Source: Sulfuriroseicoccus oceanibius (GTDB lineage Bacteria > Verrucomicrobiota > Verrucomicrobiia > Verrucomicrobiales > SLCJ01). From it: DNA of 64,000 nucleotides. The stretch covers positions 558,001 to 622,000 of the forward strand of contig NZ_CP066776.1 in assembly GCF_010681825.2 (NCBI RefSeq), written 5' to 3'. Under the pieces are notes generated by a model. The model made no database searches. It was not told the origin of the DNA and saw only the letters and a list, made by a program, of their open reading frames with translations. The translations under genes and the position numbers were made by a program. Below, in pieces: positions 53,722 to 63,188 of this stretch (position 1 is its first letter; every line of letters starts with the position of its first letter).

Positions 53722-55044
53722 TTACGCTTTTGTGAGCTGCCCGTCCTTCGGTTCGATGCCGGACTTCGCCAACGCATTACGGGTGTCGACGATGATATCC
53801 GCCCAGTCGACCAACTGTTGGAGGTCGAAGGCTTTGTGGTGGGTTGAGATCAGAACCGCGTCGTAGCCGCGGATGGCTTGTTCGTTCCACTCGATCGATT
53901 GGGTGCCGGTCCATTCCGCGTGCTCGCGGGTCGGGGTGATGACAGGCAGGTGGGGGTCGTAGTAATCGACTTCCGCACCTTGCTCTTTCAGCAGGTCCAT
54001 CAGCTCGAAGGCTGGCGACTCGCGCATGTCGTCGACGTCCTCTTTGTATGCCAAGCCCATGAGTAAGATCTTGCTACCGTTGACTGCTTTCTTGCGGCGG
54101 TTGAGGGCATCGGATGTGGCGCGGACAACGTACTGCGGCATGCTGCGGTTGATCTGGCCAGCGAGCTCGATGAAACGTGTGTGTACTCCGTACTCGCGCG
54201 CCTTCCACGTGAGGTAGAATGGATCGATTGGAATGCAGTGCCCGCCGAGGCCTGGTCCTGGATAGAATGCTTTGAAGCCGAACGGCTTGGTTGCAGCGGC
54301 GTTGATCACTTCCCAGATGTCGATGCCCATTTTGTCGGCAGCGATCTTGAGTTCATTGACGAGACCGATGTTTACCGCGCGGTAGATATTTTCCAGAAGT
54401 TTGGTGAACTCGGCGACCTGAGTTGAGCTGACTGGGACCACTGAGGCGATGGCCGCCTCGTAGAGGGCTTTGCCGACTTCCGCGCAGGCTGGAGTGGTTC
54501 CACCGACGACTTTTGGAATGTTCTTACTGGAGAATTCCGGGTTGCCCGGATCTTCGCGTTCCGGCGAGTAGACGAGAAAGACATCAGTTCCAACCGTGAG
54601 GCCCTGGGCTTCGATGCGCGGTTTGAGTTCTTCTTCTGTGGTACCCGGGTAGGTTGTGGACTCGAGCGATACCACCTGGCCGGAGCGGAGGTATGGGGCT
54701 ACGGCGTCCATTGTGTTGGTGACGTAGCTGAGGTCAGGCTCCAAGTGTTCGTCCAATGGAGTAGGCACGCACATGATAATGGCGTCCACTTCAGCGATGC
54801 GCGAAAAGTCGGTGGTGGCGTCGATCAATCCGTTCGAAACCCCGGTGCCAAGTGGAGCTGAGTCGATATGATCGATATAGCTCTCGCCGGCTTTGATGGA
54901 ATCCACCTTGGATTGGTCGATATCAAAACCAACGGAATGGTAGCCTTTGGCGGAGAATGCCAACATCAAAGGCAGTCCGACATAGCCGAGGCCGACGATG
55001 CCGATGACGGCGTCCTTGGATTGGATTTTTTCGAGTAGTTGCAT
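53722..55044 (-). CDS. Nucleotide-sugar dehydrogenase (UDP-sugar 6-dehydrogenase, WbpA-like)
   Basis: A 440-residue enzyme that oxidises C6 of a UDP-sugar to an acid. The Rossmann motif VGLGYVGLP (about 18-26), [27 protein letters not shown] and [16 protein letters not shown] with the catalytic Cys are typical of UDP-GlcNAc or UDP-ManNAc dehydrogenases rather than UDP-glucose ones. ATG at 55044 ([10 protein letters not shown]) is preferred; the longer frame would add eight residues. Last gene of the minus-strand glycan locus, 120 bp after the Stf0 gene. Confidence 0.9.
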
Positions 55045-55164
55045 GGCCAGAAATGAATAGGAGAGCATTGGGCTCCCAAGAGTGTGCTGTGCTTGCTTCG
55101 CCTGTCAGGCATTCCGTGTCAATGCCGCCGTGGCATGGATTTCAGGATGTGGCGGATTCGTGCG

Positions 55165-56148
55165 CTATTTGGTTGGATTTGCCGGGCCGGTTTGGCGCAG
55201 GGATTTGGGCAGGAACCAACGGCGGATCGGATGGCGGAGTGCTTTTTCCACGCTGCGTTCGATCTTGTCCAGCTGTTTGCGCGCGGGCTTGAGCTCGGCG
55301 TTGAGTCGTTTGGCTTCCGCGAGTTGTTGCTTCACTGCCGCGAGTTTGCCTTGCTTGGCTTCGAGTTCCGTTTCCAAGGCACGCATGACATCTCCGTTGC
55401 CACTGCGGGTGATCAGTTGGTCTTCCTCGTACTCATCGAGGAAACGGTTGACCCAGCTGTCGTTCAACTCGTTGCCCTGTTTTTTGGTGGCGTGTTCATT
55501 GGTGAGGGACGAGGCATCAACATCAATGCCGGCGAACTTGGCGATACGGCCGACCACATCGACGAGGTCATTTTTCACTTCGTCGAAGCTCACTTCGATG
55601 TAGGGCAGGGCGGCAGCTTCCAACGTGTAGCGCCACGAGGCATTGTCCAAAACCAGCTCACGCAAGCAGTGGTTGATCTGGTCGAAGTCGTAGGTCGGGT
55701 TGGAGTTCCTGGCTTCCATTCCCGAGATCCAGACGCCGGTCTGACGGGCCACCGCGAGGGAGACCGCCTGACGTACGAGGTCTTTACGGGTGAGGATCAC
55801 GTAGTGAGCGTTGGGGAGAAGCCGCTCGATCCTGCGGATACCACCGTGATGCCGCACGTGGGAATAGTGAAGTTTGATCCCGAAGACCCCATTCGGTGCC
55901 GTGCGACGATTCTGGATCTCGTGCAGGGTGTCCTCCACACCGGAAGTATCAAACCTGCGCTCCCACTCGGTGAAGTTGGTCGGGTTGGCATACTCAAGTG
56001 GGTAGCCGAAGGCACCGGTGCGGTGCAATGCATGGCCTAGCATGTGGCTGCCGCTTCGTCCGGTCGATGCGATGACCAAGGTTTTGGTTGGCGGCGCGTT
56101 GCCTGGCGTATCGTGGTTGGACGAGAACTGATCGGTGTAGAGAGCCAT
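55165..56148 (-). CDS. Stf0-type sulfotransferase with C-terminal coiled coil and basic tail
   Basis: A 327-residue protein. Residues about 22-250 resemble Stf0, the trehalose 2-sulfotransferase fold: the PAPS loop reads ASTGRSGSHML (28-38), followed by GYPLEYANPTNF, and IKLHYSHVRHHGG and LTRKDLVRQAVSLAVARQTG are conserved. A heptad-rich helix (about 252-305) leads to LRHPIRRWFLPKSLR (306-320 or so), nearly the same tail as in the next gene. It should transfer sulfate from PAPS (see cysC/cysD/cysN) to a sugar; the acceptor is unknown. Confidence 0.8.
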   Translation of the reverse strand: MALYTDQFSSNHDTPGNAPPTKTLVIASTGRSGSHMLGHALHRTGAFGYPLEYANPTNFTEWERRFDTSGVEDTLHEIQNRRTAPNGVFGIKLHYSHVRHHGGIRRIERLLPNAHYVILTRKDLVRQAVSLAVARQTGVWISGMEARNSNPTYDFDQINHCLRELVLDNASWRYTLEAAALPYIEVSFDEVKNDLVDVVGRIAKFAGIDVDASSLTNEHATKKQGNELNDSWVNRFLDEYEEDQLITRSGNGDVMRALETELEAKQGKLAAVKQQLAEAKRLNAELKPARKQLDKIERSVEKALRHPIRRWFLPKSLRQTGPANPTK

Positions 56149-56186
56149 GAAGGGAGGATGAAAGACCGGTAGGTCAGAGTGGAATA

Positions 56187-57299
56187 TTAACGGGATGCCC
56201 TTTTCAACGACTTGGGGAGAAAGAGCGAGCGGAGCGGGTGACGCTGCACCTTTTCGAGATCGGCGTTCAACTGCCGGAGCTTTTTGGCGCTGGCCTTGGT
56301 GTCGTCCAATTTCGCCTTGAGCGACTGAACCTTTGCTGATTGTTCGGAGGCTTTTGTTTTGAGTGAGGTGAGCTTTTCGGTGCTCGAGGCGAGCTTCTTT
56401 TCGAGTGTCGAAACGTAGCCGGTCGGTCCGTAAGCTTCTGCCACGAAGCGCTCAAGACGCTCCAAGTCCTGACGCACGAGTTGCTCGGGGGACGGCTGGC
56501 TGAGGGATGGCCAGAGGTCGGAAGGGAAGGCGTCGATCAATGCCTGGGCATCCCATTGCGGAGTCATCAACGCGCATCGTTCCAGCACATCCTCCAGAGC
56601 GGGATAGTGCTCTGCGGATGAGAGGTCAAGGGCTTGCCAATTCTCAAGTCCCGCTCCCGAAGCGTAGTCACGGTATTTGAAGTCGCCACCGATGATGCGA
56701 TCCGAGAGCACCAACTGACAGCGCGGGACTCCGTAAACATCAGCCGCAATCAATCCATGCAAACTGGTCGAGACAATGGCTTCACACGCCGCGACCTGAT
56801 CGGCGAAGTCTGTGATCCCCGATGCGACATTCAACACGGTGACATCAGGGAGGCTCGCCAATTGCTGCACTACCGGATGATCCCGGTCTACGAAATGTGG
56901 AATGACTCCAAGACGGTAGTGTTTCGGGACGTTGGGTTGGTAGAACCGAGACATCAGCAAGGCAGGATCGCCGAACGCGGTGGGCGGTGTGATGCCCCGT
57001 TTTTCCAACTCTGCAGCAGTGAGCTTGCCGCGCACTGCCCTGAACGACGCCTTGGTGCTGCCCAGTTGATCAGGGCTGATCATTCCGCTGCCCCAAACCA
57101 CACTGTGGTCATCCGCCGATTGTAACACACTGCCGATAGCCATCAGGTTTTGTGGCCCATTTGCAGCAGATGAGAGATCGGCGCCAAGTGCCACCTCGTG
57201 AATCGTGCCGCCCATGCGGGAAACGATCCAGCCACTCAATCGGTCACCCCAATTTGGAACTCGGATGAACGTGCGTAAGGGAATGCTCATAGTGGTCAT
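56187..57299 (-). CDS. Polysaccharide pyruvyl transferase family protein with C-terminal coiled coil and basic tail
   Basis: A 370-residue protein of the PS_pyruv_trans family, which puts pyruvate ketals on sugars. Features: NWGDRLSGWIVSRMGG near the N-terminus, GDPALLMSRF, LGVIPHFVDRDHP and the ISTSLHGLIAADVYGVP signature (VSTSLHGLIAADVYGVP here). Residues about 285-350 form a coiled coil, ending VQRHPLRSLFLPKSLKRASR, close to the tail of the Stf0 protein. Gene order: 9 bp after the GT2 gene, 38 bp before Stf0. Confidence 0.83.
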   Translation of the reverse strand: MTTMSIPLRTFIRVPNWGDRLSGWIVSRMGGTIHEVALGADLSSAANGPQNLMAIGSVLQSADDHSVVWGSGMISPDQLGSTKASFRAVRGKLTAAELEKRGITPPTAFGDPALLMSRFYQPNVPKHYRLGVIPHFVDRDHPVVQQLASLPDVTVLNVASGITDFADQVAACEAIVSTSLHGLIAADVYGVPRCQLVLSDRIIGGDFKYRDYASGAGLENWQALDLSSAEHYPALEDVLERCALMTPQWDAQALIDAFPSDLWPSLSQPSPEQLVRQDLERLERFVAEAYGPTGYVSTLEKKLASSTEKLTSLKTKASEQSAKVQSLKAKLDDTKASAKKLRQLNADLEKVQRHPLRSLFLPKSLKRASR

Positions 57300-57308
57300 G
57301 GTTGGCGG

Positions 57309-59372
57309 TTATTTTCCGAACAGTCGGGAGAGCCAGTTGGGGCGTTCGCGTGGTGTCGATTCCGTGGCAGCCTTTGGCTCGTCTTGAGTAGACGGCTTTG
57401 AGAGCTTTTTGCTCTTTTTGCGCTCAGGGATGATGGGGACCCATGCTGACGGTAGGCTGTTGTAGACTTCGGGATGAGTGGATTTCAACCATCCGATGTA
57501 GGGCACCAACAAGGATGGGGTCTCCTGCTCTAGCAACTGAATAACCCTGGTCAGGTAGTGAGAGTCTCCTTGAGTCAAAGCTATGTGAGTGGCGCGGCAA
57601 AGCCAGGTCAGGTCCACGGCGGCTCTGAAGCGCTCCGGATAGTCCATCAACGGCGTCCGCCACGTGTTGGTCAGCATTGCCAATTCATCTTCGATCGCAG
57701 ACAAAGCAATTTTCGCTGCGGGGGGAGTTGGTGCGGGCAGCGATGGGTCGAGAATGCCGCATGCTCTATATTTGTGGAAGAAGTCGATTAGAAACTTTTC
57801 GATTCCGAATTCTACGAATGTGTTGTCGATCCCACCCATCGCAAGAAAGGCATCGCGTGTTACCATTAATGTCTTGGCACACGAGATTCCGCATGGGCTT
57901 TGGAGAAAGATCTCCCGGGACAAGTTTCCGAGCGGAGCCTGTTTTTGCTTCTTGTATTCCGGGGGCATCGCGTAGACGGCGCTGCATCCGTTTTTGTGAG
58001 CGGCTGATACCATCTCCTCGAATTGGAGTTCTGGCAGCGGATCCCCACAATGCACGATGCGGATCCAGTCGCCCATGGCGCCCTGAGCGGTTTGATTGAT
58101 GAGTGTTGGTAGCTCTTCCGGGCTGGCTGTGGTCACCATCTTGGTTGGCAAACCCTTTGGTAGTGGCCTCGTGGCGAGCGAGGAATCTGCGCCAACGATC
58201 GTCACATCGACCGGGCGTCGTGATTGATCTGCGATCTGGTGCAGAGTGTGCGCGAGATCGTCTGTGGTGTGTGACTTCGGGTTACACAATACGATCACGC
58301 TGACCTGATTCAATGAGGTGAGATCAGCGTTCTCTGGTTCGTTGCTGTTCGGGGCTATTGCTAATCCGTGTAGCCCCCCCGGATGACCGCTCTCTCTCAG
58401 CAGCGGGTCCACTAGCATTTCCCGTTCGTTTGGTTTCGCCCACTTTGCCAGGCAGTCTCCTAGTAACTGGAAGGCGGTCTTTTGATCATCCTTGTCGGCG
58501 ATCTTGTCGATCATGGACAGGATCAATCGCACTTTGGAATAGATCAGTTTGAGAACATCCGCGGGAAGTGACGACTTATCGTAGCATTCTAGAAACAACT
58601 GGATCAGCCGAATCCGATCCTTTGCGGTCTTTAGCGTGAAAGTTTGCATCACGCTGAGGTTGGCGGGGTCGTCCCTTTCGGTGCGCCAATATACGATATG
58701 GTCGATGATGCGGATGTCTCTGGCGCGATCGACGACCGCCATGGCAAACGCTGCGTCCTCACCGGTAATCGGAGGGAACAGCAACTGGTTCGCTTTTAAA
58801 AAGGCCAATGAGTAGATCTTGGCGACGGGGATGGGGTGGGTCAGTGCGAGTTCGGGCTTTCGCCGCACATTGCGTCCGCAGTTCTCCCCGGCGTACCAAT
58901 GGTCCAAATAACCGAAAGGATCCTCGCTGCCGTCGTCGCGTTTCCACATTGGCCGGCCGAGCACCAGGTCGGCCTTGGTGTTGATTATCTCGCGCAGCAA
59001 TGCTTCGCATGCGTCTGGCGGCATGCGATCGTCGGAATCGAGGAAGATGACATAAGGTGCAGAGGTCAATGACATGCCGAGGTTTCTGGCGACCCCTTGT
59101 CCTTCGTTTTCCTTTTCCTTGTAGATGATATTGGAGTGGCGTCTTGCGAACTCATCTGCAATCGCGCCGCTGCCGTCGGTTGATCCGTCGTTAATGACAA
59201 TGAGCTGAATGCGATCGGCAATCGTTTGGGAAAGGATAGAGTCCAAACAATTTTCCAGATAGCGCTCCACGTTGTACACCGGAATAATCACGGCGATGTC
59301 GTACGTGGTGTCTGTTGGAGTGGCGCCTTCGCGGACCATCCAATCATCGCGCAATTTGGAAAAGAGATTCAT
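57309..59372 (-). CDS. Glycosyltransferase family 2, two-domain
   Basis: A 687-residue protein. The N-terminal GT2 domain (about 25-280) is complete: VIIPVYNVERYLENCLDSIL, VINDGSTDGSG, FLDSDDRMPPDACEAL. A second GT-A-like region (about 353-560: VSVIVLCNPK, VTIVGADSS, WIRIVHCGDPLPEL) lacks a clear DxD and may be inactive or structural. The C-terminus (about 640-687) is basic and Pro-rich and ends NWLSRLFGK, a short amphipathic tail. It has no membrane helix. Confidence 0.85.
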   Translation of the reverse strand: MNLFSKLRDDWMVREGATPTDTTYDIAVIIPVYNVERYLENCLDSILSQTIADRIQLIVINDGSTDGSGAIADEFARRHSNIIYKEKENEGQGVARNLGMSLTSAPYVIFLDSDDRMPPDACEALLREIINTKADLVLGRPMWKRDDGSEDPFGYLDHWYAGENCGRNVRRKPELALTHPIPVAKIYSLAFLKANQLLFPPITGEDAAFAMAVVDRARDIRIIDHIVYWRTERDDPANLSVMQTFTLKTAKDRIRLIQLFLECYDKSSLPADVLKLIYSKVRLILSMIDKIADKDDQKTAFQLLGDCLAKWAKPNEREMLVDPLLRESGHPGGLHGLAIAPNSNEPENADLTSLNQVSVIVLCNPKSHTTDDLAHTLHQIADQSRRPVDVTIVGADSSLATRPLPKGLPTKMVTTASPEELPTLINQTAQGAMGDWIRIVHCGDPLPELQFEEMVSAAHKNGCSAVYAMPPEYKKQKQAPLGNLSREIFLQSPCGISCAKTLMVTRDAFLAMGGIDNTFVEFGIEKFLIDFFHKYRACGILDPSLPAPTPPAAKIALSAIEDELAMLTNTWRTPLMDYPERFRAAVDLTWLCRATHIALTQGDSHYLTRVIQLLEQETPSLLVPYIGWLKSTHPEVYNSLPSAWVPIIPERKKSKKLSKPSTQDEPKAATESTPRERPNWLSRLFGK

Positions 59373-60178: not shown

Positions 60179-61837
60179 TCAACGACGCAACAAGCGGGCG
60201 ATCAAGCTCGGCTTGGGGGCTGGGGCGGCTGACGCTTTTTCAGTGCGTGGCGTCGGCTTTTCACTGGATGGCGGTTTTGGGAATGAGGAAACGATAGAGT
60301 CGATGGTGCGTCGCGCCTGGTCCTCGCTCCAGTTGGCAAGAGGGGTGCCGGAAAAGGCTTGGTACGCCGAGGAATCTGCAGCTGGTAGATTCAGGGCTGC
60401 GCGTGTGTGGTCAAGCCATGTGCCCCGCAGATCTGGAAAGGCATAGGCGACAGGGCTTGGAGATTGTTGGCCGCTGACCTTCGCGTCGGCGAGGAGCAAG
60501 AGCGACAACAAGATGGGATCCGGGCGTGCGGCTCCTTTGTGGAGCGCTTGCTGGACGAAGCGGTTGGCCTCGATATAGGCAGCCTCTCCCGTGGACTTCG
60601 GATCGAGCAAATCCAGCAATGTGTGGGCCATGAGTAGGTCGGGAGTGCCCTTGTAATAAACACATGCCTGATCGAACTGCTTGCGGGCCTCGGGTAAATC
60701 GAAGGCGTCTGGAGTCAGCGCGTGGAAACAGCGGTTCACGCAGCGGGAGAATGGTGAGTTTGCCGAGTAGTGCGGCAGCTCCTCCGCACCTGCCTGGACG
60801 TAGGTCGGGGCGGAGAGGATCGATGGCTGGTGAAGGCGCATCTGGATACGTTCGTCGGCAGTGAGCGATTGCCATGTCCGCAGCCAATCTGCGATGTGGG
60901 CGCGTGCCTCGATGCTGTGCTGTTGTTGTACCAGCTCTTGCCCAGCGCGGGTGATGCGGTCAATGCGGTCTGGATCGGCAAACAAAGCGGTGAGCTTCTC
61001 TACTGCGTTGGATGCATCCGCCATGACGCAGTTTTCCATGTCGACGAAGCCCATTTGTTCGATCACGGGGATGCGCTCGGCGATCATGCAGCACCCGGAT
61101 GCGGGGATCTCCAAGGCTTTCTTGGTGATCACGTGGAAAGACGCGCCGCAGTTCAGAGCGAACTGCGAGCGGTTTAGCAATTTGGCGTACTCGGCTCCGA
61201 CGTATTTGTGGAAGCTTTGGGCTTTCGGGCGCGGGGCGGAAAATGAGGGGAAATGGCGGCGGATCACCGGTGCGATCGCGCGGCGCCATGGGTAGCGGTT
61301 GGAATGGCCGTCGTCGTCGAAACCATCTCCCAGGATGGCGATTGGGATGGATTTCTCCAAGCCGTAGTCTTTGAACACACCCTTCGATGCGAACGGAGGA
61401 ACAATAGCGGTCTTCGCGCCCCACTTGCCGAGCATCTCGCGCTTGTTGGTGAGCTTGGCGAAGATGATGTCTGGCTGCAGAAGTTCCAGCGTGTGGATGA
61501 AATCGGTACGGGCTGGTTCGTGGCCATCGGCAAGCGTGACGACAGCGATCGGGATGCCGGCGGCGGTGGCGGTGGCGCGTAGCACTTCCGGGTTGCAGCG
61601 GATTCTGATCCCGTTGTTGAAATCGACTGCTAGAATAATTTCGGGTGCGTGGGTCTCCACTGTCTCGCGGACCTCCTCGTCACCTACCGGTGAGACAGTG
61701 TGCAGGTCGAAAAAGTGGTCCAGCCATCCGAGGAATGGGCGCACCGCCGACTCCATGTAGTATTCCTGGATTTCATCAAAACCGGAGAGGAATAGAAGCC
61801 CGTGGGGACGCTGGGCGGGAGGGGTACTGGATGACAT
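60179..61837 (-). CDS. GT1-like (CgeB-type) glycosyltransferase with basic C-terminal tail
   Basis: A 552-residue GT-B-like protein. The C-terminal nucleotide-sugar half (about 200-310) follows the Glyco_trans_1_2 pattern: NRSQFALNCGASFHVITKKALEIPASGCCMIAER (read as two stretches), MGFVDMENCVMAD, then DRIDRITRAGQELV. The remaining part (about 370-500) is helical. The protein ends SLIARLLRR after an Ala/Pro/Lys linker, again an amphipathic basic tail. ATG at 61837 (MSSSTPPAQR) is chosen. First gene of the leftward glycan operon, 178 bp from the divergent GT4 gene. Confidence 0.75.
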   Translation of the reverse strand: MSSSTPPAQRPHGLLFLSGFDEIQEYYMESAVRPFLGWLDHFFDLHTVSPVGDEEVRETVETHAPEIILAVDFNNGIRIRCNPEVLRATATAAGIPIAVVTLADGHEPARTDFIHTLELLQPDIIFAKLTNKREMLGKWGAKTAIVPPFASKGVFKDYGLEKSIPIAILGDGFDDDGHSNRYPWRRAIAPVIRRHFPSFSAPRPKAQSFHKYVGAEYAKLLNRSQFALNCGASFHVITKKALEIPASGCCMIAERIPVIEQMGFVDMENCVMADASNAVEKLTALFADPDRIDRITRAGQELVQQQHSIEARAHIADWLRTWQSLTADERIQMRLHQPSILSAPTYVQAGAEELPHYSANSPFSRCVNRCFHALTPDAFDLPEARKQFDQACVYYKGTPDLLMAHTLLDLLDPKSTGEAAYIEANRFVQQALHKGAARPDPILLSLLLLADAKVSGQQSPSPVAYAFPDLRGTWLDHTRAALNLPAADSSAYQAFSGTPLANWSEDQARRTIDSIVSSFPKPPSSEKPTPRTEKASAAPAPKPSLIARLLRR

Positions 61838-62015
61838 AGTGGATAGCGGGGAATGCGCGAATATGCGTAGCGGAGATCGCATGAGCAATCAACCCTAGGG
61901 TCGGCCCTGTGATGAACGGATAAGGTCACGGGGCTTGTCCAGGGCCAAGATCCGGCAGATACGGCAATCGGATGCTGGACAAGCTGCGGCCGATCGCGAA
62001 CCGTGGAGCACGATC

Positions 62016-63188
62016 ATGAGCAGCCCATTGCACATCCTTTTCACCAATAACGCCCTGATGTACCCGGCAGGAACCGAGATCGCCGTGCGCGAGGTCGGCC
62101 GCAACCTGATCGCTCGCGGCCATCGGGTCACCGCCTATTCTCCAATGGTCGGAAGTTTTGCCGACGATCTCAGGGCACTTGGGGTCGAGGTGGTGAGTTC
62201 GTTGGATGCAATGACGGACCGGCCGGATGTGATCCACGGCCACCACGAGTGGGAGACGTCGTTGGCGGCAATGCATTGGCCGGATGTGCCGGTGGTCTCG
62301 TTTGTGCGTGGCGCCCGGGTTTGGCAGGAAGCTCCGTGTTTTGCTCCGAATGTCGTGCGCTATGCCGCGGTGGATCAAGGATGTGTGCAACGGGCCCTCG
62401 CCTGTGGAGTGGAGGAATCCAAGCTGCAACTCGTGCTCAATGCCGTGGACATGCAGCGCTTCGCCACCGTGCGCAAGCCGCGCCGCAAGCCGAAGCGAGC
62501 GCTGATCTTCAGCAACTACGCCCAGCCGGGGAACTACATGGACGCCGTGATGGAGGGCTGTAAAAAGGCCGGTGTGAAGTGCGACGTGATCGGTAATGGC
62601 ATGGGTAACTGCCGCCCGGACCCCGAGGCCTTTCTGCCTGAGTACGATCTCGTTTTTGCCAAATCCAAAGCGGTGCTCGAAGCGCTGGCGTGTGGGTGTG
62701 GGGTGATCGTCTGCTGTGAACCCGGGCTCGGACCGGTCGTGACGCGTGAGAACTTCGAAGCACTCCGTCGCGAAAGTTTCTTTTACGACTGCATGAGCGA
62801 TGAGATCACGCCGGACGCCATCGCTGGCCGCATCCGTGAATGGGATCCGGCTCAGGCTCCGGAGCTGACGGCTCACGTGCGTGAGGTTTGTTCGTTCGAC
62901 CGTCATGTGGCGGAGCTTGAAGCGCTGTACCGCGAGGCGGCGGCGACTGAGATCACGCCGGACCCTGTGGCGATCGGGCGCTTTGCCGCTGCGTTGGCAG
63001 AACCAAAGACCACGGCCTTCAAAGCCGGACGCCAGATGCTCGAATACCTGCGCGATGCCGAAAACCGCGAAGTGCCACAAGACGCCGCCACCGCCGCCAA
63101 AGAACACGACAGCCTCCTTGACCGCTATCGCAAAGGCCGCAAAGCCGTGGCGGAGCTCAAGAAACTTAAGAAGCAGTTGGGGAAGTAG
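62016..63188 (+). CDS. GT4-like glycosyltransferase
   Basis: A 390-residue GT-B protein. N-terminal half: ILFTNNALMYPAGTEIAVRE (8-27), RNLIARGHRVTAYSP and VIHGHHEWE. C-terminal half: ALIFSNYAQPG, FAKSKAVLEALACGCGVIVC with a Glu-containing ECEP-like CCEPGLGPVVT. The last 30 residues are Lys-rich (AVAELKKLKKQLGK), resembling the basic tails of the divergent operon. ATG at 62016 is used. It ends 36 bp before recG (convergent). Confidence 0.8.
   Translation: MSSPLHILFTNNALMYPAGTEIAVREVGRNLIARGHRVTAYSPMVGSFADDLRALGVEVVSSLDAMTDRPDVIHGHHEWETSLAAMHWPDVPVVSFVRGARVWQEAPCFAPNVVRYAAVDQGCVQRALACGVEESKLQLVLNAVDMQRFATVRKPRRKPKRALIFSNYAQPGNYMDAVMEGCKKAGVKCDVIGNGMGNCRPDPEAFLPEYDLVFAKSKAVLEALACGCGVIVCCEPGLGPVVTRENFEALRRESFFYDCMSDEITPDAIAGRIREWDPAQAPELTAHVREVCSFDRHVAELEALYREAAATEITPDPVAIGRFAAALAEPKTTAFKAGRQMLEYLRDAENREVPQDAATAAKEHDSLLDRYRKGRKAVAELKKLKKQLGK

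Follow-up and report, generated by a model that had tools for sequence, protein, structure and literature searches.

Two adjacent genes of Sulfuriroseicoccus oceanibius encode enzymes with unrelated catalytic folds, a Stf0-family sulfotransferase and a polysaccharide pyruvyl transferase (PvT), which both end in a predicted coiled coil followed by the same short basic tail. As far as sequence searches tell, this tail is a private, local feature that was found nowhere else. We give roughly an even chance to the reading that it is a localisation module, which would dock these two glycan-decorating enzymes at the inner membrane or at a membrane partner that both have in common. The genes are arranged head to tail within a minus-strand operon of envelope-glycan enzymes, at 61888-53722 of the 64,000-nucleotide stretch of DNA analyzed here (the window; Table 1), with gaps of 38 (Stf0/PvT) and 9 bases between genes. 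Stf0 passed the gathering score of PF09037 (93.4 bits vs. 22) and PvT that of PF04230 (39.9 bits vs. 25.3), and the cut-off of the trehalose 2-sulfotransferase equivalog NF047724 was not reached by Stf0 (80.7 vs. 400 bits). The three glycosyltransferases between 57309 and 63188 have basic or hydrophobic-basic C-termini as well (WLSRLFGK, LIARLLRR and LKKLKKQLGK), which are preceded by low-complexity linkers in two of the three.

Table 1. Features of the Stf0/PvT region, in window positions.
Feature	Position	Strand	Evidence
Sulfotransferase of the Stf0 family (327 aa), coiled coil and tail at the C-terminus	55165..56148	-	PF09037 E 2e-26; PDB 1tex E 2e-9
Stf0 catalytic domain, residues 25-237	55438..56076	-	Pfam
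Stf0 coiled-coil helix, residues 251-304	55237..55398	-	heptad test p 0.001; predicted helix 251-305
Stf0 tail motif RHPIRRWFLPKSLR, residues 305-318	55195..55236	-	sequence and alignment
Polysaccharide pyruvyl transferase (PvT; 370 aa), coiled coil and tail at the C-terminus	56187..57299	-	PF04230 E 6e-10
PvT core (Pfam-matched part), residues 83-192	56724..57053	-	Pfam
PvT coiled-coil helix, residues 290-352	56244..56432	-	heptad test 0/5000 shuffles; predicted helix 271-352
PvT tail motif RHPLRSLFLPKSLK, residues 353-366	56202..56243	-	sequence and alignment
GT2 glycosyltransferase; charged linker, then NWLSRLFGK at the end	57309..59372	-	context
Possible second sulfotransferase, 256 aa	59412..60182	-	likeness by eye only; without family match
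Glycosyltransferase (Glyco_trans_1_2); C-terminus KPSLIARLLRR	60179..61888	-	context
GT4-type glycosyltransferase; C-terminus AVAELKKLKKQLGK	61935..63188	+	context
Nucleotide-sugar dehydrogenase	53722..55068	-	TIGR03026 E 9e-130

In both proteins the motif RHPxRxxFLPKSL[RK] follows a predicted long heptad helix, with isoleucine or leucine at the variable position 4 (RHP[IL]R..FLPKSL[RK]). The tail is not exactly C-terminal, as nine residues (QTGPANPTK) in Stf0 and four (RASR) in PvT lie beyond the motif. A degenerate FLPKSL pattern matched twice in the window, against 0.01 matches expected. Local alignment of the C-terminal 65-70 residues reached a score of 102, compared with 31 ± 5.7 for shuffled sequences (maximum 71, n = 5000), and the score of 28 for the catalytic parts equals the background, which confirms the preliminary description of two unrelated catalytic folds with one common coiled coil and tail. 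Most of the tail-alignment signal stems from the motif, and the coils alone are mildly similar (47 vs. 30 ± 5.5, p = 0.008).

Heptad periodicity is significant in both coils, and AlphaFold2 models, calculated from single sequences without an alignment and of low confidence outside the coils, predict long helices with pLDDT values of 82-88 across residues 261-300 of Stf0 and 76-87 across residues 301-350 of PvT. Both predicted helices stop at the RHP motif or at most one residue into it; the motif itself contains two prolines, and the models show just short helices inside it. The last 30 residues of both enzymes have a high helical moment, and their net charges of +7 and +6 rank among the highest of 108 ORFs from the surrounding DNA, whose mean is -0.2 (sd 3.7); this sample is non-random and includes spurious ORFs.

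The coil-plus-motif end is absent from all 23 PvT homologues examined (about 28-42% identity, several phyla and the paralogue of the same genome included) and from 10 of 10 Stf0 homologues. The catalytic domains are homologous to those of the PF04230 family and of the Stf0 sulfotransferases (PDB 1tex; PF09037), and the lack of the coil-plus-motif end in the examined members of both families identifies the tail as an add-on; the alternative of the preliminary description, that whole-length homologues of each family carry it independently, does not apply to the homologues examined. A literature search for Stf0 proteins with a coiled coil found no report. The three closest Stf0 homologues (53, 45, and 37% identical; loci L020, L037, and L045) have short basic amphipathic ends without a coil, which suggests that the tail may elaborate an already existing habit of basic ends in the closest Stf0 subgroup; homologues with at most 33% identity end shortly past the catalytic domain.

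The motif is equally confined at the level of genomes. Allowing up to three mismatches, it occurs in the own genome in these two genes alone, and a third site, which has three mismatches, falls within a frame of 96 aa that shows no credible gene end. The exact degenerate pattern, which requires exact residues and was applied to 84,980 species genomes, yielded seven sites, and none of those re-read was a credible gene end; the sites recovered by the motif regular expression lie in frames of at most 98 aa, and this expression did not recover two of the seven (L028 and L034). A profile of the two tails run against 387 genomes of the phylum, the kind of search for tail and coil that had been proposed earlier, gave no further carriers; the matches re-read were all either generic coils or frames that contain no gene. 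With a looser pattern only chance sites were detected in 387 genomes of the order; these matches, one of them from another genome of the genus (G002), lie in short frames that mostly overlap longer genes in other frames. The window's own family is represented by three genomes in the collection searched. Viral contigs contained no motif match, and a tblastn search of plasmids with the last 32 aa, a weak search due to the short query, found none either. The suggestion that the tail has been spread as a module is therefore not borne out, since the own-genome, phylum, order, and 84,980-genome searches all restrict the motif to two adjacent genes, and among the matches re-read it belonged to these two proteins only. 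This distribution also argues against a widespread C-terminal sorting module that is attached to several domain types in many genomes.

Within these limits, the proposal of the preliminary description that the tail places the enzymes on the inner membrane or a scaffold is plausible, and the basic amphipathic C-termini of the two enzymes and of their neighbours lend support to it. In the localisation reading, the coiled coil, which is probably oligomeric, would space each catalytic domain from the cationic amphipathic end RHPxRxxFLPKSL, and this end would dock either on the inner membrane, from its cytoplasmic side, or on a membrane-bound partner common to both enzymes; pyruvylation and sulfation would thereby be co-located on the same lipid-linked glycan intermediate. 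As 10 of the 13 motif residues are identical, which exceeds the needs of a bare lipid-binding helix, we lean toward docking on a protein partner more than on lipid. The module probably arose once, by an ancient copy from one gene to its neighbour (we infer both direction and date), and afterwards the coil would have drifted and the end motif would have been kept. More tentatively, the tail could be a genome-private address tag, a short sequence-specific peptide on a coiled-coil spacer that moved between neighbours of unrelated fold and recruits both enzymes to one membrane-bound assembly partner. If this were true, unrelated enzymes would be gathered into one envelope-glycan assembly line via a short end piece copied from gene to gene, and the tail would offer a compact tag, with a reach limited to one pair in one genome. 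Docking is in line with WbdD, which has the same arrangement of catalytic domain, coil and amphipathic end and for which the function has been demonstrated (PMC11231755). A C-terminal appendage is also known to tether the envelope glycosyltransferase TagA peripherally to the membrane (PMC6493773). The appendage of the WecB-TagA-CpsF family resembles the proposed role of the tail in being required for peripheral membrane association (PMC6493773), but it belongs to the conserved family fold and feeds the active site, whereas the tail described here is an add-on absent from homologues.

A possible, though rather doubtful, alternative is that coils and tails pair Stf0 and PvT directly into a two-enzyme complex, with the motif as a homo- or heterotypic interaction element and not as a membrane anchor. 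This would be in line with two adjacent genes that encode the same coil-plus-motif and a motif that is kept at the sequence level. Functional coupling is also suggested by other Stf0/PvT neighbours. A second pair in reversed gene order is present in the same genome (C1:846598-848345; L037 10598-12345), 45% (Stf0) and 42% (PvT) identical to the window enzymes, and a Jannaschia plasmid carries Stf0 and PvT genes close to each other, together with those of a further sulfotransferase and a glycosyltransferase. However, both of these pairs are without the tail, which indicates that the Stf0/PvT pairing recurs and the tail does not, and little specific sequence is common to the coils. The second pair of the own genome is part of a larger cluster of polysaccharide genes, some of which are flippase-like and WecB/TagA-like.

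Glycans can carry sulfate and pyruvate as terminal groups, and it is conceivable, yet unlikely, that the coil acts as a molecular ruler which fixes the distance from a chain-capping active site to the membrane and thereby limits glycan length. The model for such a mechanism is WbdD of E. coli O9a and Klebsiella O3 and O5, in which the coil is the ruler and the C-terminal end binds both the membrane and the polymerase (PMC11231755). Both window enzymes are predicted to have the WbdD-type layout with a coiled coil between the catalytic domain and a C-terminal basic segment, and the order of an N-terminal glycan-modifying catalytic part, a coiled coil, and a C-terminal amphipathic end, which in WbdD serves as membrane-associated helix and recruitment site, is the same (PMC11231755). 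In contrast, WbdD combines a methyltransferase (with a kinase in O3) with an extended ruler coil and an ABC exporter, whereas the two window enzymes transfer sulfate and pyruvyl groups, have short coils (about 54-63 residues) and carry one and the same tail; one ruler for two different caps would be odd. A search for Wzt_C (PF14524), a domain that the exporters of some pathways lack, gave no match in the genome, and the window cluster contains no O-antigen ABC exporter. The missing Wzt_C protein and the short coils make a WbdD-type ruler less likely than docking of the tail as a localisation module.

We regard it as very unlikely that generic basic amphipathic ends arose by chance or convergence on two membrane-associated enzymes. 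Basic C-termini are indeed common in this cluster, but the motif alone scores 57, compared with 17 ± 3.8 and a maximum of 39 in 20,000 shuffles, its position relative to the coil end is the same in the two proteins, and a looser form of it matched no further protein among those sampled. A recent and functionless 3'-end duplication or gene conversion, for which the adjacency of the genes and the absence of the tail elsewhere could be quoted, is the least probable explanation and is largely contradicted by the strongly diverged coils and by synonymous differences in 7 of the 10 identical motif codons (8 of 12 with the preceding EK included), in a comparison of two sequences. These codon differences argue that the tail is not a recent copy and that the motif is kept at the protein level; judged from the two sequences, the amino-acid sequence of the motif is retained while the coil drifted.
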